The notes under the pieces: generated by a model
What the model was told of the DNA's origin: nothing
The model's database searches: none
The model's input: only the letters and a program-made list of their open reading frames with translations
Translations under genes and position numbers: made by a program
Shown: in pieces, positions 22,584-32,275 of the stretch
Layout of the letters: each line of letters begins with the position of its first letter
Position numbering within the stretch: position 1 is the stretch's first letter
NCBI RefSeq assembly: GCF_900188415.1
Contig: NZ_FZNV01000003.1
Coordinates: 682,001-746,000, forward strand
Length of the DNA: 64,000 bases
Reading direction: 5' to 3'
Origin: Maribacter sedimenticola
GTDB lineage: Bacteria; Bacteroidota; Bacteroidia; Flavobacteriales; Flavobacteriaceae

Positions 22584-23789
22584 TTGAATTTTCCCTTATA
22601 TATCGCCAAACGATATGTGCGTTCCAAAAGCTCACAGAACGCGGTCAACATTATTAATTTTATTACTTTTTTGGTAATCGTTATCGGTTCTGCCGCACTG
22701 TTCATTGTACTGTCCGCATTTGCCGGATTAAAAACTTTTAGCCTTTCGTTTACCGAATCCTTTGATCCACAACTAAAAGCCTTACCCATTACGGGAAAGA
22801 CATTTTCATTGACCCCGGAACAGGAACAAAAATTGCTGGCAATAGATGGCCTGGCACACTATTCCAAAGAACTGGAGGAAAAAGTTTCCTTGGAACATAA
22901 AGGGAAGAACCATATTGCGTACATAAAAGGAATAGACAGTAATTATACCAAAGTAACGGGCGTAGATAGTACCTTGTACATTGGTGACTGGACAATTAAC
23001 GACACCCAAGTGGTATCTGGGTTGGGTATCGCCAATATCCTAGGGGTAACCATAAACCAGTTTAGAAGCCCATTACAGATTTATGCCTTTAAACCGGGTA
23101 AGGGCTCTATTTCTCAACAACGCATTTCATCGCTCTATAATCAACTGCCAATGGTAATTGGTGGGGTATATGCGGTGGAGGCAGACCTGGACAATAAATA
23201 TGTTTTTGCCGATTTACGCCTTACACAGGCCTTATTGGAGAAAGATTCGCTACAGGTATCTGGGGTAAATTTTAAAATGGACGAGGGTATTGACCCCAAT
23301 ACCGTGCGCCCTGCATTACGTGCCGTTTTAGGCCCTAATGTGGTGTTGAAGGATAGGCAGGAACTTAATAGTACGCTGTATAAAATGCTGAATACCGAAA
23401 ATGTTGCCACATACCTTATTTTCACCCTTGTACTGATCATTGCCCTGTTCAATGTGGTGGGTGCCATTATCATGATGATCTTGGACAAACAACAGAATTC
23501 TAAAACATTATACAGTCTAGGAACAACGATAAAGGAATTGCGACACATTTATTTTGTCCAGGGAATATTGGTAACCGGTTTTGGAGGGTTGATCGGAGTT
23601 TTAATCGGAGTGCTCCTAATATGGTCCCAACTAACCTTTAGCTGGCTTATGATTACACCTTCTCTTGCCTACCCGGTTAAATTTGAGTTTATCAATATCG
23701 TCATTGTACTGACTACAATAGTGGTATTGGGCATCATTGCATCCAAGGTGGCGAGTAGTCGCATCAACAAAAAACTAATTGAAAGCTAG
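22584..23789 (+). CDS. LolC/FtsX-family ABC transporter permease
   Basis: About 400 residues: an N-terminal transmembrane helix (NIINFITFLVIVIGSAALFIVLSAFAGL), a periplasmic MacB-PCD-like domain of about 220 residues, and three C-terminal helices (YLIFTLVLIIALFNVVGAIIMMIL; GILVTGFGGLIGVLIGVLLIWSQL; FINIVIVLTTIVVLGIIA). This is the layout of lipoprotein-release permeases. The preferred start is the TTG at 22584 (then NFPLYIAKRY), 4 bases after rbfA; an ATG at 22539 inside rbfA would add 15 unlikely residues. No ATPase partner (LolD) is adjacent. It ends overlapping the convergent dusB stop. Confidence 0.87.
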   Translation: MNFPLYIAKRYVRSKSSQNAVNIINFITFLVIVIGSAALFIVLSAFAGLKTFSLSFTESFDPQLKALPITGKTFSLTPEQEQKLLAIDGLAHYSKELEEKVSLEHKGKNHIAYIKGIDSNYTKVTGVDSTLYIGDWTINDTQVVSGLGIANILGVTINQFRSPLQIYAFKPGKGSISQQRISSLYNQLPMVIGGVYAVEADLDNKYVFADLRLTQALLEKDSLQVSGVNFKMDEGIDPNTVRPALRAVLGPNVVLKDRQELNSTLYKMLNTENVATYLIFTLVLIIALFNVVGAIIMMILDKQQNSKTLYSLGTTIKELRHIYFVQGILVTGFGGLIGVLIGVLLIWSQLTFSWLMITPSLAYPVKFEFINIVIVLTTIVVLGIIASKVASSRINKKLIES

Positions 23790-24784
23790 GAAAGGGTAAA
23801 TTCGTGGTCTCCAAATTTTTCCAATACCTCATCAAAGGCCTCAAATACCGAAGCAGAATCGTCACTAGTGACCATTTTCATACGATACTCCTTAAAATTG
23901 GGAATTCCTTTGAAATAATTGGTATAATGCCTTCTGGTCTCGAACACACCCAATGTCTCTCCTTTCCAATCAATGGACATCTGTAAATGACGGCGCGCGG
24001 CATCTACACGTTCTTCCATGGTTGGCGGGGCCAAATGTGTGCCCGTTTCAAAAAAGTGCTTAATTTCCCTAAATATCCAAGGATATCCAATACTAGCGCG
24101 ACCGATCATAGCGCCGTCCAGACCAAATTCATCACGCATTTTCATTGCCGCTTCCGGAGAATCCACATCACCATTGCCAAAAACGGGAATATGCATTCTT
24201 GGGTTGTTCTTCACCTCTCTAATGGGGTTCCAATCCGCATTACCCTTATACATCTGCGCACGGGTTCTACCATGTATTGAAATTGCCGCACAACCTACAT
24301 CTTGTAATCGTTCTGCAACCTCAACGATTTTTATAGAATCATCGTCCCAGCCCAATCTTGTCTTCACAGTAATGGGTAAATTGCTGTGCTCTACCATGGC
24401 CTTAGTCAAGGATACCATTAAATCAATATCCTTTAGAATACCTGCACCTGCGCCCCTACTTACTACTTTCTTTACAGGACAACCAAAATTAATGTCTATA
24501 ATGTCCGGGTTGGATTTTTCAACAATTTCCACGGACTGTAGCATACTCTCCAGATTGGCACCAAAAATTTGAATACCTACCGGGCGTTCCTTTTCATAAA
24601 TATCAAGCTTCATCACGCTCTTTGCCGCATCACGTATCAACCCTTCTGACGATATGAACTCCGTATATACGACATCTGCTCCCTGCTCCTTGCAAAGGGC
24701 ACGAAACGGGGGGTCGCTTACATCTTCCATAGGAGCTAAAAGCAACGGGAACTCCGGTAATTGTATGTCTCCAATCTTTGGCAC
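23786..24784 (-). CDS. dusB: tRNA-dihydrouridine synthase
   Basis: A 332-residue FMN-dependent TIM-barrel enzyme that reduces uridines in the tRNA D-loop. Motifs: LLLAPMEDVSDPPFRALC at the start, the catalytic Cys in IDINFGCPVKKVVSRGAGAG, ITVKTRLGWDD, AISIHGRTRAQMYKG, VFGNGDVDSPEAA and GAMIGRASIGYPWIF. It uses a GTG start at 24784, supported by the -7 element 23 bp upstream and by PKIGDIQLPEFPLLLAPM being the usual N-terminus. It converges on the permease with overlapping stop codons. Confidence 0.94.
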   Translation of the reverse strand: MPKIGDIQLPEFPLLLAPMEDVSDPPFRALCKEQGADVVYTEFISSEGLIRDAAKSVMKLDIYEKERPVGIQIFGANLESMLQSVEIVEKSNPDIIDINFGCPVKKVVSRGAGAGILKDIDLMVSLTKAMVEHSNLPITVKTRLGWDDDSIKIVEVAERLQDVGCAAISIHGRTRAQMYKGNADWNPIREVKNNPRMHIPVFGNGDVDSPEAAMKMRDEFGLDGAMIGRASIGYPWIFREIKHFFETGTHLAPPTMEERVDAARRHLQMSIDWKGETLGVFETRRHYTNYFKGIPNFKEYRMKMVTSDDSASVFEAFDEVLEKFGDHEFTLS

Positions 24785-24987: not shown

Positions 24988-25770
24988 ATGAATAATTCCT
25001 TGCTTGTTGTCCCTATCCCTTTTGAGCCTACCGTTTTTGGCGTTACGTTGAACATGCATTTGATTTTGGAATATTTGGCCTTTTTTATCGCCTTTAGGTA
25101 TTATATCATCTTACGCAAAAAAAAGGGGGATGCCATTTCTTCGGAAAACAGGCTTTCCATAATAATCGGTGCTGTGTTTGGGGCCTTGCTCCTATCAAGA
25201 CTGGTAGCCTTTTTAGAAAACCCCAACTTACATTTTGAGCAAGGTCTACTTTTTAACCTGAACAACAAAACCATTATGGGCGGCCTTTTTGGCGGATTGT
25301 TGGGGGTAGAACTGGCTAAAAAGATAATTGGAGAACAACGTTCTTCTGGGGACCTTTTTACCTTGCCTATACTTTTTGGAATTATCATAGGTCGGTTAGG
25401 ATGTTTTCTGGCCGGTGTAAAAGAGTTTACCTATGGTAAAGAAACTTCTTTTTTTATGGGGATGGATTTGGGTGACGGGGTTACAAGGCACCCTATCGCA
25501 TTGTACGAAATTCTTTTTTTGTCCGTACTTCTGATAGTCATCAAAAAACTACAAAAAAACAACGCATTACCTACTAACGGCGACTATTTTAAACTATTTA
25601 TGGTTAGCTATTTTGTATTTCGTTTTGCCGTGGAATTCTTAAAACCCAACCAGTTTTATATCCTTGGCCTAAGCAGCATTCAAATATTATGTTTAATTTG
25701 TTTCCTATACTACCACAAGTTCATTGTTCAAGGAATTGTCTATGCCCGAAAAAAGTTACACGTATTATGA
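24988..25770 (+). CDS. Prolipoprotein diacylglyceryl transferase (Lgt) paralogue, membrane protein
   Basis: About 260 residues with seven hydrophobic segments. It carries Lgt landmarks: FGVTLNMHLILEYLAFFIAFRYY, GRLGCFLAGVKEFTYG (the GRxGN-FxN-x-E-x-YG region of Lgt, here with Cys and Ala substitutions) and RHPIALYEILF (Lgt HPxQLYE). Canonical Lgt moves diacylglycerol from phosphatidylglycerol to prolipoproteins. The altered catalytic loop suggests a paralogue with a different acceptor or donor. ATG 24988 is preferred over a TTG at 24973. It overlaps the following radical SAM gene by 29 bp, a strong sign of linked function. Confidence 0.75.
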   Translation: MNNSLLVVPIPFEPTVFGVTLNMHLILEYLAFFIAFRYYIILRKKKGDAISSENRLSIIIGAVFGALLLSRLVAFLENPNLHFEQGLLFNLNNKTIMGGLFGGLLGVELAKKIIGEQRSSGDLFTLPILFGIIIGRLGCFLAGVKEFTYGKETSFFMGMDLGDGVTRHPIALYEILFLSVLLIVIKKLQKNNALPTNGDYFKLFMVSYFVFRFAVEFLKPNQFYILGLSSIQILCLICFLYYHKFIVQGIVYARKKLHVL

Positions 25771-27136
25771 TTTTACTATAAGCCTATGCCCAGAATGTCT
25801 TAGAAGGGTAGATGCCAAAATCGTTTTTGAAAACGAGAAGGTATATATGCTTAAACACTGCAAAGAACACGGCAGGTCCAAAGTTTTGATTGCTGATGAT
25901 ATTGAATATTATAAGAACATAAGAAACTATAACAAAGCTTCTGAATACCCAAAAACGTTTAATACCCAAACCCACTTTGGTTGTCCGTATGACTGCGGGC
26001 TCTGCCCTGACCATGAACAGCATTCGTGCCTAACGGTCGTTGAACTTACAGATCGTTGTAATTTAACCTGCCCTACCTGTTATGCAGGCTCGTCTCCCAC
26101 CTATGGCCGTCACAGGACCGTGGAGGAGGTAAAACAAATGCTTGACGTTATCGTGAAAAATGAAGGCGAACCGGATGTGGTTCAATTAAGTGGTGGCGAA
26201 CCTACAATGCACCCCCAATTCTTTGAAATCATGGACTATGCAAAAACATTGCCCATTCGTCATTTAATGTTGAACACCAACGGAATAAAGATTGCCAAGG
26301 ATTTTGAATTTGCCAAACAATTGGCAACCTATGCCCCTGACTTTGAGATTTACCTTCAGTTCGATTCCTTGAACGATACTATTTTACAAACCTTAAGGGG
26401 TGCAGATTTGGCGAATATAAGGTTACAGGCCCTGGAACATTTAAACCGGTTAAACCTTTCCACTACCTTGGTGGTTACCCTGCAGAAAGGCCTTAACGAC
26501 CATGAAATGGGCAGCACCATAGACTTCGCCTTAAAACAACAATGTGTTCGGGGGGTCACTTTTCAACCCACACAGATTGCAGGTAGGTTAGAAAATTTTG
26601 AAGTGGATGAAAATAGGATAACCCTAACCGAGGTTCGAAGAAAAATTTTAGAACAGTCCCCTTTATTTAGTGCAGACGATCTTATCCCGGTACCCTGTAA
26701 TCCAGATGCCTTGGTCATGGCCTATGCTTTAAAGCTGGGAAATGAGGTTAGTCCGCTAACACGTTATATTAATCCTGATGATTTGTTGAACGAAGGAAAA
26801 AACACCATTATATATGAACAGGACGAACAATTGCACGGAAAAATGATCGAACTGTTCAGTACCGGCAATTCCGTAGAAACAGCATCTGAAAACCTAAAAA
26901 GCATTATGTGCTGCCTGCCGGAAATCGATGCCCCAGAACTGGGATATGACAACCTGTTCAGAATTATCATCATGCAATTTATAGATGCCCATAACTTTGA
27001 CGTTAGGGCCATTAAAAAGTCATGCGTGCACATTGTAAACAAAGATTACAAAATCATTCCTTTTGAAACCATGAACCTATTTTACAGGGATGAAAAGGTG
27101 GCGCGTTTAAAAGAACTACAAACAGAAGTGTTATGA
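25742..27136 (+). CDS. Multi-cluster radical SAM protein, tetraether-synthase (Tes/MJ0619)-like
   Basis: A 464-residue radical SAM enzyme starting at ATG 25742 inside the end of the Lgt-like gene. The radical SAM cluster is CNLTCPTC (C106, C110, C113), followed by a GGEPTMHP SAM-binding motif. The N-terminus adds further Cys: C16/C19 (CPEC), C40 (HCKEHG) and the group GCPYDCGLCPDHEQHSC (C81, C85, C88, C96). This N-terminal arrangement, with CPxDCGLCPDH before the SAM motif, is the hallmark of the family that includes the archaeal tetraether synthase Tes and the methylase MJ0619, which act on lipid chains or pterins. C-terminal CCLPE and KSCVHIV may bind a further cluster. The exact reaction is unknown. 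Confidence 0.85.
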   Translation: MPEKSYTYYDFTISLCPECLRRVDAKIVFENEKVYMLKHCKEHGRSKVLIADDIEYYKNIRNYNKASEYPKTFNTQTHFGCPYDCGLCPDHEQHSCLTVVELTDRCNLTCPTCYAGSSPTYGRHRTVEEVKQMLDVIVKNEGEPDVVQLSGGEPTMHPQFFEIMDYAKTLPIRHLMLNTNGIKIAKDFEFAKQLATYAPDFEIYLQFDSLNDTILQTLRGADLANIRLQALEHLNRLNLSTTLVVTLQKGLNDHEMGSTIDFALKQQCVRGVTFQPTQIAGRLENFEVDENRITLTEVRRKILEQSPLFSADDLIPVPCNPDALVMAYALKLGNEVSPLTRYINPDDLLNEGKNTIIYEQDEQLHGKMIELFSTGNSVETASENLKSIMCCLPEIDAPELGYDNLFRIIIMQFIDAHNFDVRAIKKSCVHIVNKDYKIIPFETMNLFYRDEKVARLKELQTEVL

Positions 27137-27333
27137 TATTGGAAGTTGGTAACCTTGATGGCATCTTTATACTGATCTTCTTGATCATGTTTGGTCCCGC
27201 CCTATTATTCATACTCATTGGAAGTATATTATTTGCCAAAAAAAAGAAAAAGGCCGGCAAGGTTTTTATGATCTTAGCAGGGGTCTATCTATTGATCAGT
27301 ATTGGATACTGTGGTATATTGATGTCCTCCTAA
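27133..27333 (+). CDS. Small two-helix membrane protein
   Basis: A 66-residue protein with two hydrophobic segments (ILIFLIMFGPALLFILIGSILF and VFMILAGVYLLISIGYCGILM) joined by a KKKKKAGK loop. Its ATG overlaps the radical SAM stop by 4 bases (ATGA), so it is translationally coupled to the cluster. No family is recognised. It may hold the radical SAM enzyme at the membrane or be a minor partner of the Lgt-like protein. Confidence 0.7.
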   Translation: MILEVGNLDGIFILIFLIMFGPALLFILIGSILFAKKKKKAGKVFMILAGVYLLISIGYCGILMSS

Positions 27334-27337
27334 ATCT

Positions 27338-29737
27338 TTATAATCGTTTTCCCTCATCAGTATTCTTGCGCTTGTAATTATCACGAATCTTGGTATTGCC
27401 AAATTTATATCTAAAACCAAATACAAATAGCCTGTTTTCCCACCTGGTACTGATACTGTTTCGTTGGTCAAGATAATTTCTGGTTGAATTATAATTACCG
27501 TTGTTAAATATATCCTCCACGGCCAGAGATAAACTGGCCGCCTTGTTCCATAATGTCTTTCTAAAGGCAAGCCCCAATTTACTAAAGGACTCAAATTTGG
27601 CGTTACCACTAATACGAGGCGTAAAATGGGTAAACGTTAAATCTGCATACAATGATTTATCACTCAACAAGGTAAAACTGTTCGTTGCTCGGGTATGGGT
27701 GGTCCATATATCATTTTCTACGATGAGACCCGTTCCCGGATCTCTAAAACTATCCTTGTCATAGTAATGACTAATGAGGAAGAACAAGTTCCAATAAGAA
27801 GTCAGGTTTTTGGAAATACTGGCATCCAGGCCATAATAATAATTGGTTTCCAGATTAATGTATTGGGTACGTAATATATTGGCGGTATTATCCTGAAACA
27901 CTTGTTGGGATTGCTCATTTGATTTTTTACTGGCAAACAATACTAGCTTATAGGTTTTGTCATACACATAATCTAACTGGAGATAATCACTATATGCCGG
28001 TTTAAGTTCTGGGTTGCCCTCTTCAATGGAATTGGCCGAATAATAAAATTGAAAGGGGTTTATATCCCCATATCTTGGTCTGGTAATGCGCCTAAAAGAT
28101 TTTAGGTAAAAGGCATTTTTATCTATGGTGTATGACACGGACAATGAAGGGAAAACGTTAAAGTATGACCTTGTAGTTGTATTGACCCCAGTATTCAACT
28201 CACCTTTAGAATCTGTATATTCCCCTCTAAGACCTACGTTCATTTTCCAATTTTCCCAGTTGTTATTTAGGCTTATATAACCGGCATAAATCTGTTCGTC
28301 GTAATTGAAAACCCCAAACTCCGTAGGCTGTACCCCCTCTACTGCAGTATCAAACCCTATTTGTTCAATACCTGCTTCAGAATTTATGGTGGCCAGCCTT
28401 AAACCTGTCTCTAAGGTTGTGTGGTCGTTAAAAGGGTACGTTAGATCTGTCTGCAAACTGTATAGGTTAATGATCTGGTCAGATGACACTTCTAAAGTGT
28501 TTTCTGAAGTATAGACTGATGCGCCCTGAACAATGTCATTCGTTATAACCTGCTCCCTTTTATTATCATAGTACGTAAAGTGTGCATTGGTGGATAGTGT
28601 GGCTCCTTTATCGTTTATTTTATGTACCCAATCTATATAATTAGCACTATTGAACATATCATTGTCCAATGTATTCAATCCTTGCAATTGCGCGGTCAAC
28701 TCCCCATCAAGGTCCTCAATAGCGGTCTGGGAAGAAAAACGCCTTGCCCTATTGGGGGTAAAACTGCCATTTGAAGTAACGCTAAGGGTGTTTTTTTCAT
28801 CCAGCTGAATATCTAAAAATACATTAAGGTTATGTTTCTTTTCTTTAGTGACCGATTTTTGCTCGGCGGTCCATTGTTCACTTTCCTGCCCATCTTCAAA
28901 AAAACTGGTGATATCCGTATATCGTGCCCAATTGCGGTTATGACTAAAACTATAATTCGTAGAAAAATCTATTTTTCTGCCCTTAAAGAAATGGTCCATA
29001 CCTATTGTATGTTTTGGCAGGACTCCTTGGGTGTACCTATTAAAAACGGCACCGTTATATCCTGAGACCAAATTCTTTTTCATTTTAATATCAAGCACCA
29101 ATCCGCCTTCTGCACTGTACTTGGCGGGTGGACTCGTAATTACCTCTATGGATTCTACGTTACTTGCAGAATTGCCCGTCAGTAGATTAATAATATCCTC
29201 TTCCGGCAAATTGATCCTTTTGCCATTGATCATGATGTTTACTTTGGAACTACCGTTAATATACAGTTTGTTGTTCATGACCATTACACCGGGAGTACGT
29301 TTTAAAACGTCCCAAATATCTCCCTCTGCCAAAGCGGTGTTTTCAATATTAAAAATATGCCGGTCAGCCAAATGTTCAATCTTAGGTTTTTGATGGGTTA
29401 CCACTACCTCATCCAACAATTGGGCATTGTTCAACCTCAGCGTAGGCATTTTCATGTCTTTGGTCAATTTAAATACAGGGCTTTCAACCGTATTTTCTAT
29501 GTAACTGGCCGCTATGCTATACTCGCCTTCGGTTACAGATTTAAACATGTAAAACCCCTTATCATCGGTTACGGTGCCCTTAATGAAATCACCAGTATTG
29601 GTCAATAGAATAATATTGGCCAAAACAACCGGTTGCTCCTCGGAATCCATGATCAAACCGGTAATCGTAAAATCTTGCGAAAAGGCTAGGGATGTTGTAA
29701 AAAGTAGTAATAGTGTGGTAATTAAATCCCTCCTCAT
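27338..29737 (-). CDS. TonB-dependent-receptor-like outer-membrane protein (copy 1)
   Basis: A 799-residue protein with a signal peptide (TLLLLFTTSLAFSQ), an N-terminal carboxypeptidase-regulatory-like beta-sandwich (DFTITGLIMDSEEQPVVLANIIL), a plug-like domain (DVLKRTPGVMVMNNKLYINGSSKVNIMINGK, VITSPPAKYSAEGG) and a barrel of about 600 residues ending in FGFRYKFGN. This matches the outer-membrane beta-barrel family common in Flavobacteria. The substrate is unknown. It forms a tandem pair with the next gene, which has the same domain order but is well diverged. The stop converges on the small membrane protein gene with only 4 bp between them. Confidence 0.86.
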   Translation of the reverse strand: MRRDLITTLLLLFTTSLAFSQDFTITGLIMDSEEQPVVLANIILLTNTGDFIKGTVTDDKGFYMFKSVTEGEYSIAASYIENTVESPVFKLTKDMKMPTLRLNNAQLLDEVVVTHQKPKIEHLADRHIFNIENTALAEGDIWDVLKRTPGVMVMNNKLYINGSSKVNIMINGKRINLPEEDIINLLTGNSASNVESIEVITSPPAKYSAEGGLVLDIKMKKNLVSGYNGAVFNRYTQGVLPKHTIGMDHFFKGRKIDFSTNYSFSHNRNWARYTDITSFFEDGQESEQWTAEQKSVTKEKKHNLNVFLDIQLDEKNTLSVTSNGSFTPNRARRFSSQTAIEDLDGELTAQLQGLNTLDNDMFNSANYIDWVHKINDKGATLSTNAHFTYYDNKREQVITNDIVQGASVYTSENTLEVSSDQIINLYSLQTDLTYPFNDHTTLETGLRLATINSEAGIEQIGFDTAVEGVQPTEFGVFNYDEQIYAGYISLNNNWENWKMNVGLRGEYTDSKGELNTGVNTTTRSYFNVFPSLSVSYTIDKNAFYLKSFRRITRPRYGDINPFQFYYSANSIEEGNPELKPAYSDYLQLDYVYDKTYKLVLFASKKSNEQSQQVFQDNTANILRTQYINLETNYYYGLDASISKNLTSYWNLFFLISHYYDKDSFRDPGTGLIVENDIWTTHTRATNSFTLLSDKSLYADLTFTHFTPRISGNAKFESFSKLGLAFRKTLWNKAASLSLAVEDIFNNGNYNSTRNYLDQRNSISTRWENRLFVFGFRYKFGNTKIRDNYKRKNTDEGKRL

Positions 29738-29845: not shown

Positions 29846-32275
29846 TCAATTATCCAGGCGATCACGCTCTATTTTATCGATATCCCTTTGATTATCCTCT
29901 AAACGGAAATTACCAAAATTATAGGTGAACCCAAATTTAACGTACTGGGTTTCCGGGGTAGACAGAAACCTATTGTCCTGGTTGAGGTAAGTGGAAGTAA
30001 AATAGGTATTGTACTTGTTTAAAAGATCATTGGCGCTTAGACTTAAAACCATTCTATTTTTGTTAAAGGATTTTCTAAGTCCCAAGGTCAAATTCATTAA
30101 TTCATCTTGAATATAGGACCCTTGCAAATAGCCCGATAAGTACACAAAGCCCAATTCTCCCTTAAAGGTGCCGTCCTTGGACAGCGTTAGGTAATTGGTC
30201 AAATCTACATAAGCTCCTTGATAATCAAGAGCGAACGAATTTTCATTGCTCTGTACGGCCAAGAATGTTTCGTCCTCATGAAAGAGAGATATGTAGCTGT
30301 ACAAGTACCAATTGTTGCTGATAGACTTTCCATAGGTGAAGTCTATGCCGTAAGAGGTGCTTTTCAACACATTCTGGGTTACGTCCCGTACCACCAAATT
30401 GGTATTGTCCTGAAAGGTCAATGTTGAAATGTACCTACCATTATCCCGGTAATAAAAATCAAAAAAGTATTCTTGTTGTAAGGTATAGTTAAGATTAAAA
30501 TTATGGCTAAAATTTGGGGTCAGGTTAGGATTGCCCTCCTCAAAAGTACGTTCGTTGATATATGTTCTGAACGGGTTTAAATCATCATATCTTGGCCGTT
30601 TCAACTTCCTGGAATAGTCCAATGAAATACTATGGTCATCATTTATGGTATGTAATACGAACACGGAAGGGAAAAACTCCAGGTATTCCAGATCATTAAT
30701 TGTGGTAACACTTGCAGATACGCCCGTACTTTTAGTTTGCTCTGCACGTAACCCAGATTTAATACTCCATTTCTCCCAATCTTTGGACAGACTAACATAA
30801 GCGGAATACACATTTTCATCATACGTGTAATCATCTGACAGATTGGCTATGAACTGGGAGCCATTATTCTGTAAAAAATAATCAAGGGTACTTTTTGAAT
30901 CTATAAACGATCCCTTGACCCCGGTTTCAAATGAAATACTGCCAAAATAATTGCTATAATCCAATTGTGCGGTTTTTATATCTATTTGCTGGTCCGCAAT
31001 CGTAAAAAAATTATACTCGCGCACAAACGACCCGTCAGGTAAAAAATAGTCCGAACCCACATCCTGGCCACGGTTAAAATCAAAATACGTGTAATGGGCA
31101 TTTGCGTTTAAACTGCCCTGGTCTTTAAAGGTGTGCTTAAAGGTTAAATCACCCGAAAGGTTAGTTTTTTTCTCGTCCAAATAACTGTTTGTAGTAAATG
31201 TGGAATCTATAATACCGGCACCGTTCCTTATTATGGTTTCTTGAAAATACTCGGCATCCCGCTTGGGCTGTAATTGGGTATTGGTCGTAAGGCTTAAGAC
31301 ATTTCTGTCATCTATCTCATAATCAATGTTCAGTGCGGCAATATGTGCCTGGGTACGTATTATTTGGTCAAAATCAGTGTGCCAAATGGAAAAAACACCT
31401 CTCTCATCCTTAAAATTAATGGTATTCAACAAACCCTTATATTCCTTTTTTGGTACATAATTATAATTGGCATTCACATTCAGTTTATTGGTCTTATAAA
31501 AGTGCGATGTGCCAAAATTATACTTTGGAAATACTCCTTGGGTATACCCTGCACTAACATTGCCTTTATACCCCAATGAAACATTTTTACTGGTAATGAT
31601 GTTCAGCACTGAGCCCCCTTCCGCATCATAACTTGCGGGCGGATTATGAATGACCTCTACCGATTTTATATGCTCCCCTTGATAGTTTTCCAAGAGACTA
31701 CGTACTTCTTCTGCCGATAGTTGTACTTTTCTATTGTTAATATATACAGTAGTGGCTTGGTTACGAACCTTTAATTCATCATTGTTCACGATTACTCCTG
31801 GAGTCTGGCGCAATATATCCCAAGAACTGTTTTGGGACAACGCCGTGTTTTCCACGTTAAAAACTATACGGTCTACCTTACGTTCAACGGCTGGTCTATT
31901 GCCCACCACCGTAACTTCATTTAACTCTTCTGCACGCTGGGGTATAAGGATGGCACCTATTCTGGTGTCCATAAAAATTTCCAATGCCAAATATTCTGAA
32001 GTTTGACCAATATAAGAGGCCTGTAAAAAGTAAAGGCCTTCATTGATATTGTCCATTATGAAAGCTCCATCTTCATCTGCAGAAGTTCCCTTGACCATAG
32101 TAGAGTCAGAAACTTGTAATAGAAATACTGAAGCAAAAGGAATGGGTTCTTGGTTTTGATCCTTGATACTACCCTTTAATTCATAGGTTTGTGCAAGAAT
32201 ACTTTGGGTTATACCCAATACAAACAACAAGGTGGTCAATAGTATTTTCAATGCTAACTTGGGGTTATATATCAA
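29846..32275 (-). CDS. TonB-dependent-receptor-like outer-membrane protein (copy 2)
   Basis: An 809-residue paralogue of the adjacent receptor: signal peptide (LLFVLGITQSILAQ), regulatory beta-sandwich (YELKGSIKDQNQEPIPFASVFLL), plug-like region (WDILRQTPGVIVNNDELKVRNQ, VIHNPPASYDAEGGSVLNI) and barrel (GYTQGVFPKYNFGTSHFYKTNK; the other copy has YTQGVLPKHTIGMDHFFKGRK at the same point). The gap to copy 1 is 108 bp with no terminator seen, so the two may share a transcript starting here. Confidence 0.86.
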   Translation of the reverse strand: MIYNPKLALKILLTTLLFVLGITQSILAQTYELKGSIKDQNQEPIPFASVFLLQVSDSTMVKGTSADEDGAFIMDNINEGLYFLQASYIGQTSEYLALEIFMDTRIGAILIPQRAEELNEVTVVGNRPAVERKVDRIVFNVENTALSQNSSWDILRQTPGVIVNNDELKVRNQATTVYINNRKVQLSAEEVRSLLENYQGEHIKSVEVIHNPPASYDAEGGSVLNIITSKNVSLGYKGNVSAGYTQGVFPKYNFGTSHFYKTNKLNVNANYNYVPKKEYKGLLNTINFKDERGVFSIWHTDFDQIIRTQAHIAALNIDYEIDDRNVLSLTTNTQLQPKRDAEYFQETIIRNGAGIIDSTFTTNSYLDEKKTNLSGDLTFKHTFKDQGSLNANAHYTYFDFNRGQDVGSDYFLPDGSFVREYNFFTIADQQIDIKTAQLDYSNYFGSISFETGVKGSFIDSKSTLDYFLQNNGSQFIANLSDDYTYDENVYSAYVSLSKDWEKWSIKSGLRAEQTKSTGVSASVTTINDLEYLEFFPSVFVLHTINDDHSISLDYSRKLKRPRYDDLNPFRTYINERTFEEGNPNLTPNFSHNFNLNYTLQQEYFFDFYYRDNGRYISTLTFQDNTNLVVRDVTQNVLKSTSYGIDFTYGKSISNNWYLYSYISLFHEDETFLAVQSNENSFALDYQGAYVDLTNYLTLSKDGTFKGELGFVYLSGYLQGSYIQDELMNLTLGLRKSFNKNRMVLSLSANDLLNKYNTYFTSTYLNQDNRFLSTPETQYVKFGFTYNFGNFRLEDNQRDIDKIERDRLDN

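Follow-up and report, generated by a model that had tools for sequence, protein, structure and literature searches.

An Lgt paralogue, a Tes-like radical SAM enzyme and a small Gly-x-Cys membrane protein: a three-gene unit recurring in distant bacterial groups, with a possible part in membrane-protein lipidation

What does a bacterium make with an operon that couples a paralogue of the diacylglyceryl transferase Lgt to a relative of the archaeal tetraether synthase Tes? The question is raised by three open reading frames (ORFs) on the + strand at 24988-27333 of a 64,000-nucleotide stretch of Maribacter sedimenticola contig NZ_FZNV01000003.1 (the window). The first (24988..25770) encodes LgtP, a 260-residue integral membrane protein of the Lgt family, the second (25742..27136) a 464-residue Tes-like radical S-adenosylmethionine (SAM) enzyme, and the third (27133..27333) a 66-residue membrane protein, identified by its two hydrophobic helices, that ends in a conserved Gly-x-Cys and is the candidate acceptor. 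Genes 1 and 2 overlap by 29 bases and genes 2 and 3 by 4 bases; the first-pass annotation of this DNA had described the three as overlapping or abutting. It is near certain that the three genes constitute one evolutionary unit. We infer the chemistry of that unit, and put forward tentatively, at somewhat short of even chances, that the operon is a dedicated system of membrane-protein lipidation and lipid modification.

The unit is set beyond chance by conservation of gene order and co-occurrence, which is what the survey proposed in the first-pass annotation has yielded. LgtP is found nearby, and on the same strand, in 133 of 148 representative radical SAM loci, with a median gap of 2 bases and a largest gap of 1347. 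(The 148 comprise 41 short and 20 long genome stretches, 7 plasmid loci and 80 contig loci, many of the short ones from a single genus; 20 short copies of longer loci, lone-LgtP loci and relic loci are left out.) Throughout loci L003-L047, LgtP adjoins or lies near the radical SAM gene, except at L029, which is cut at a contig edge. The 15 loci lacking a nearby LgtP are accounted for by four of Tes or methyltransferase-linked type (L065, L066, L070, L076), eight cut by contig ends, two genomes (G377, G583) with LgtP on a different contig, and one real miss (L169).

In a draw of 295 Bacteroidia, 18 genomes encode a full-length orthologue of this radical SAM protein (at least 66% identity); in a draw of 296 Bacteroidota, 26 genomes have a match with E no higher than 1e-30. 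LgtP profile scores in 296 Bacteroidota genomes fall into 26 at or above 215 bits, the next match scoring 159.5 bits. With the two draws of 296 taken as identical (they are of equal size and carry the same handles), both genes are present in 25 genomes, LgtP alone in one (G134), the radical SAM gene alone in one (G402) and neither in 269 (Fisher p 5e-34, uncorrected for kinship and including two genomes whose genes lie on different contigs). The radical SAM protein of G402 (locus L062) is a Tes by the curated model, at 493.8 bits. Within the window's genus, 27 of 36 genomes searched hold the radical SAM gene, whole or as contig-end pieces; an intact small protein accompanies it in all 27 (in one as two tandem copies) and is present in none of the other nine, four of which fall below 90% completeness. 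In two of those nine (G015, G020) the same flanking genes enclose remnants of the radical SAM gene and of the small-protein gene, and LgtP was not found there; in three more the sole trace is a short stretch matching the small protein, interrupted by a stop. These relics and the joint absence suggest that genes of the operon tend to be lost together. Relic loci of two congeners are L174 (4816-7750) and L175; at L174 the flanking genes now have two ORFs between them, which resemble, by eye, an M28 peptidase and a TolB-like protein.

The first-pass annotation knew of no such lipid chemistry described in Flavobacteria. The system is present there and is not confined to them: this is a conserved system recurring in several distant bacterial groups, across phyla. 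A contig scan with an alignment of the wider group gave 581 confirmed candidates, of which the best 80 were taken; these are mostly from Actinomycetota, with others from Oscillochloris, Thermobaculum, Eremiobacterota, Armatimonadota, Planctomycetes and Fictibacillus gelatini. In a plasmid collection, 10 records have a relative of the radical SAM gene and four of these have an adjoining LgtP (Persicobacter, two Mycobacterium plasmids and Nonomuraea, the last three at ~31% identity); LgtP was not found in the other six of these 10 (Mycolicibacterium vanbaalenii and five haloarchaea), nor was a radical SAM relative found in two (Indioceanicola, Cellulomonas) of the six plasmid records matched by LgtP. 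One genome held as Bacteroidota, G424 (L063/L077), carries an actinobacterial-type radical SAM gene with 65-69% identity to those of Mycobacterium and Nonomuraea, which suggests gene transfer or a mis-binned contig.

LgtP is a member of the Lgt superfamily by its match to PF01790 (LGT; E 2e-21, 76.8 bits, cut-off 24.9) and falls outside the Lgt equivalog TIGR00544 (45.7 bits, cut-off 118.9). The canonical lgt of the same genome is on another contig and scores 195.1 bits in the genome profile search, as against 76.5 for LgtP. The AlphaFold2 (AF2) model of LgtP, with a mean predicted local-distance difference test (pLDDT) value of 88.4, has a single fold match in the PDB with E<0.001, and this is E. 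coli Lgt (5AZB; query-normalised template-modelling score, TMq, 0.62; E 4e-7). (The alignments behind this and the other AF2 model held only sequences of the window and related loci, with few rows near the window's clade.) The HPxxLYE motif, remarked on in the first pass, is here HPIALYE (residues 168-174; 25489..25509, + strand), and its H168, Y173 and E174 are kept in 132, 132 and 129 of 133 LgtP rows. Residues reported as essential in E. coli Lgt include Tyr26, His103, Arg143, Asn146, Gly154 and Arg239. Equivalents of Arg143, Arg239 and Gly154 are present in all 133 rows, that of Tyr235 in 127 and that of Glu243 in 125. In particular, the segment GRLGC (residues 135-139; 25390..25404, + strand) supplies Arg136, corresponding to Arg143, and Cys139, at the position of Asn146; both are invariant in the 133 rows. 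The position of Tyr26 is occupied by His in 123 of 133, while position 103 is Leu, Met, Val or Ile in 127 (Met97 in the window), Glu in three, and Ala, Thr and Phe in one each. Sixteen rows labelled canonical Lgt (L001 and 15 picked from a longer match list, all Bacteroidota) have His, Tyr or Phe at 103 in 15, Tyr or Phe at 26 in all 16, and Cys at 146 in 12. LgtP has therefore kept the headgroup site, lost the presumed helix-3 base and gained a histidine on helix 1. A quick tree, in which L184, labelled canonical, is a long branch, neither shows nor rejects monophyly of LgtP (39 rows) relative to the 16 canonical rows (approximately unbiased test, p 0.36).

Cys139 was considered as a hallmark of the system and rejected, since the canonical rows share it so widely. 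The same residue is the starting point of an explanation in which Cys139 and the Gly-x-Cys cysteine of the small protein form a thiol/disulfide module that gives redox support, either to the radical SAM enzyme or to another sulfur pathway. The invariance of Cys139 in LgtP agrees with such a module, as do the genes for a DUF4395 protein and an ICMT-family protein in the L075 operon. On the other hand, a cysteine also found in canonical Lgt is not special to the system, and none of the recurrent neighbour groups is recognisable by eye as thioredoxin-like (by inspection only, no domain search having been made); the module is quite improbable.

The radical SAM protein can be thought of as a Tes in architecture that is set apart in detail. 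Among solved structures, GDGT-MAS/Tes is the closest to it in sequence (7TOL, E 5e-68; GDGT being glycerol dialkyl glycerol tetraether), and the AF2 model of the window enzyme (pLDDT 79.7) matches 7TOL over the whole chain with TMq 0.79 and 29% identity over the Foldseek alignment, the next different fold being MoaA at 0.37. The features of Tes are there in order: an N-terminal zinc ribbon or rubredoxin-like metal site (C16, C19, C40, H43; 25787..25870; PF23545, E 5e-20), an N-terminal auxiliary cluster motif CPYDCGLCPDH (residues 81-91; 25982..26014) that aligns with the GDGT-MAS motif, and the radical SAM CxxxCxxC (residues 106-113; 26057..26080), all on the + strand. (In GDGT-MAS, C73, C77, C80 and the His of the N-terminal motif are reported to bind a cluster.) The radical SAM motif and the three ribbon cysteines are present in 67 of 67 rows and H43 in 66; the cysteines of the N-terminal cluster are found in 0 or 1 of the 38 rows of the actinobacterial-type subclade. 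The protein thus has the entire Tes architecture and its place is in the Tes superfamily. The first pass had recognised CPxDCGLCPDH and likened the enzyme to Tes and MJ0619; the likeness holds, although these are not two relatives, M. jannaschii Tes and MJ0619 being one enzyme according to Lloyd et al. 2022.

The likeness to Tes has its bounds. The Tes model NF045702 gives 291.5 bits (262.6 for the best piece in the genome search) against a cut-off of 450, and the best-scoring curated model, that of TrsS (NF045646), gives 330.1 bits against 490. The C-terminal cysteine pattern also differs: positions 427 and 442, in the CC..FC region of Tes, are Cys in the single Tes row and in 7TOL and in 0 of the 20 rows of the Bacteroidota clade (which includes Fictibacillus), of which two have Cys323 and all 20 have Cys390 and Cys391. 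Cys96 and Cys319 occur in every row except the Tes row. A quick tree of the 67 sequences puts 63 on one side of a branch with Shimodaira-Hasegawa-like approximate likelihood-ratio support (SH-aLRT) of 98, long branches being flagged; the 63 are the LgtP-linked, contig-edge and unlinked cases together with L169, and the other side consists of one Tes and three methyltransferase-linked rows. A large bacterial branch, tied to an Lgt paralogue and a candidate acceptor, is thus split off from the rest of the Tes family.

The candidate acceptor had been noted earlier as a two-helix protein, and two hydrophobic helices flanking a KKKKK loop are indeed what it has; its conserved cysteine had gone unremarked. 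It matches no Pfam or NCBIfam family above cut-off. Cys60 (codon 27310..27312, + strand, in the context IGYC) is the single invariant residue of an 18-row alignment, four rows of which (the first copy at L010, L054 and both copies of L081) were chosen by motif and the others by sequence match. The conserved Cys60 and the Gly-x-Cys end are a new observation here. To count such ends, mechanical ORFs of 45-300 residues were taken at the 133 LgtP-linked loci, and those whose last helix ends in Cys at most 25 residues from the C-terminus were scored. With position -2 unconstrained, 119 of the 794 ORFs that lie on the same strand within 1 kb qualify (at 105 of 133 loci), as compared with 3 of 697 antisense ORFs within 1 kb and 14 of 3884 lying more than 1.5 kb away; Gly stands at -2 in 103 of the 119 near ORFs and in 3 of the 14 distant ones. 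When Gly or Ser is required at -2, a rule set after examples had been seen, the figures are 109 of 794 (97 of 133 loci), 1 of 697 and 5 of 3884, and one of these five (at L090) looks like a true member. The unconstrained recount was adopted because demanding Gly or Ser at -2 tilts the count towards the result and, on its own, excludes most lipoboxes. (An earlier automatic screen had found a small Cys-ended ORF at 44 of the 80 contig loci. A first hydropathy screen, with 41 of 133 loci, 47 of 191 near and 9 of 219 far, picked the wrong helix, missed the window's own protein and was discarded.) The 109 ORFs average 2.8 Lys or Arg ahead of the helix and 0.17 in the tail beyond the Cys, a tail of 8 residues at the median. 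The C-terminal helix of the small protein thus runs from basic through hydrophobic residues to Gly-x-Cys. Basic residues orient membrane helices (the positive-inside rule), so the Cys should lie on the outer side of the inner membrane. The role of the small protein may be that of acceptor or of core partner.

Several loci have two small ORFs in tandem, and precursor genes often occur in tandem. This raises the alternative of a maturation resembling that of ribosomally synthesised and post-translationally modified peptides, in which the small protein would be the substrate of the radical SAM enzyme (acquiring a thioether, C-C or methyl modification on a helix residue) and LgtP would fix or anchor it. 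In G583 the radical SAM gene keeps a similar small ORF beside it though LgtP is elsewhere, as this alternative would have it; at G377, the other genome so divided, no similar small ORF was found by the radical SAM gene. What counts against it is the enzyme: no SPASM or RRE model is among the domain matches, those peptide-maturase models that figure in the best 25 of 61 matches cover only the core and score far below their cut-offs, and the overall fold is that of Tes, peptide-modifying enzymes matching the core alone. We regard such maturation as unlikely.

The preferred reading, lipidation joined to lipid modification, may be spelled out as follows. In the inner membrane, the small protein would expose its KKKKK loop to the cytosol and carry Cys60 on the outer side. 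LgtP would bind phosphatidylglycerol or a related phospholipid and transfer a lipid moiety to Cys60, with His24 on helix 1 perhaps replacing the lost helix-3 base. Either ahead of the transfer or following it, the Tes-like enzyme at the cytosolic face would use a 5'-deoxyadenosyl radical to activate an unactivated C-H of a lipid tail, and a C-C bond (or else a C-S or methyl bond) would form. The outcome would be a small protein held in the membrane by an unusual lipid anchor, the tails of which may be joined. Lloyd et al. 2022 report that GDGT-MAS binds phospholipids, both archaetidylglycerol and those of E. coli, that it couples carbon to carbon, and that a bond to an auxiliary cluster forms.

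Several observations weigh against this reading. His, Tyr and Trp are absent from position 103 in all 133 LgtP rows, and Glu151 is replaced in all 133, by neither Glu nor Asp in any. Since E. coli Lgt needs His103, LgtP without it may only bind lipid. Loss of His103 was rejected as proof of a dead LgtP, other Lgts being reported to carry Tyr, Trp or Phe there. Lgt acts outside the membrane and Tes inside, which makes the order of steps problematic; lipid modification before transfer would avoid this opposite-face difficulty. The replacement of two Tes cysteines and gain of two others in the Bacteroidota clade imply that the chemistry may differ. The Gly-x-Cys end, moreover, is non-classical. 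(The classical lipobox is [LVI][ASTVI][GAS]C; IGYC of the window does not fit it, and 1 of the 119 near ORFs does.) Finally, no helix-Cys ORF is found by the unconstrained rule at 28 of the 133 loci, and none with Gly or Ser at -2 at 36; a looser screen of those 36 gives a similar end at ~17, by judgement and several in over-long frames, under a rule that matches 7 of 1708 background ORFs. No convincing Cys-ended small ORF is found at the four Tes or methyltransferase-linked loci.

The loss at position 103 of His or an aromatic base in 132 of 133 rows, with that of Glu151 and with the phosphate-binding arginines kept, speaks for a free-lipid pathway. LgtP would then bind or hand over phospholipid without transfer, the small protein would be a scaffold, and the Tes-like enzyme would make a tail-modified free lipid (joined, methylated or cyclised) in a bacterial counterpart of GDGT formation. 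The completeness of the Tes fold fits with this, as does the proposal of Zeng et al. 2022 that bacterial Tes homologues make branched tetraethers. A free-lipid pathway leaves the conserved helix-end Cys and the tandem copies of the small protein unexplained, however, and the single true Tes found in the phylum (that of L062) comes without LgtP and without a small protein of this kind. We think such a pathway rather unlikely. A broader proposition is that of a second bacterial protein-lipidation pathway in many phyla, with its own C-terminal lipobox (basic-hydrophobic-Gly-x-Cys), a transferase with a relocated base and Tes-type tail joining; small proteins would then hang from a lipid that spans the membrane or carries some other carbon-carbon modification. 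This proposition is speculative, and we consider it improbable.

Besides the radical SAM gene and LgtP, the recurrent neighbour groups in 89 loci comprise 13, 12, 10, 6, 5, 4 and 4 loci. Those of 13 and 10 loci look, by eye, like antisense frames. The group of 12 consists of another small membrane protein, marked by an RSKCxLRDTR-like stretch (for example at L124, 7467-7838; also at L068), and it is possible that this is a fourth component of the actinobacterial-type clusters. L074 and L075 (4784-6941) are a divergent Bacteroidota subtype at 38% identity; the order in the L075 operon is radical SAM gene, ICMT/PEMT-family methyltransferase, DUF4395 protein, LgtP and small Cys-ended protein, and L074 resembles it by eye. 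In the window, the long ORFs flanking the operon (23786-24784 and 27338-29737) are on the opposite strand to it. Beyond the operon, 27338-29737 and 29846-32275 are consecutive - strand ORFs of ~800 residues each; the protein of 27338-29737 matches two adjoining places in L174, at 72% and 31% identity, so the two ORFs look like a tandem pair.

How does the set compare with systems already known? The open-licence PubMed Central literature, taken without preprints and most subscription journals, gave no description of LgtP, radical SAM enzyme and Gly-x-Cys protein together. Bacterial homologues of Tes are known, with no function assigned (Zeng et al. 2022; Lloyd et al. 2022), and published accounts name them as candidate makers of the membrane-spanning lipids used as climate proxies. 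With Tes/GDGT-MAS (MJ0619, NF045702, 7TOL) the window enzyme shares the whole fold, the ribbon, the N-terminal cluster motif and the radical SAM core. It differs from Tes in a score below 450 bits, in 29% identity, in loss of Cys at 427 and 442 and gain of Cys390 and Cys391 (both in the Bacteroidota clade), in Cys96 and Cys319, and in linkage to LgtP. LgtP-linked genes should therefore not be counted as those of tetraether producers without a test.

TrsS is a named selenoprotein family. Its model NF045646 gives the window enzyme its best curated score, although one below the cut-off, and also scores best with two of the methyltransferase-linked proteins (L065, L066). The three methyltransferase-linked relatives have Cys96 and Cys319 in common with the window enzyme; unlike it, they adjoin a methyltransferase gene and lack LgtP. 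These TrsS-like genes stand directly before the methyltransferase gene in Mycolicibacterium vanbaalenii and two haloarchaea (L065, 7968-10336; L066, 5986-8149; L070, 4974-7084), so that one enzyme superfamily is paired here with another partner.

With Lgt (PF01790, TIGR00544, 5AZB), LgtP shares the fold, the equivalents of Arg143, Arg239, Tyr235, Glu243 and Gly154, and HPxxLYE. It differs in a mostly aliphatic position 103, in His for Tyr26 in most rows, in the replacement of Glu151 and in a score below the TIGR00544 cut-off, and it coexists with a canonical copy elsewhere in the genome. Mycobacterium smegmatis also has a second Lgt homologue, MSMEG_5408, compared here by description alone; the operon may supply the partner set for it.

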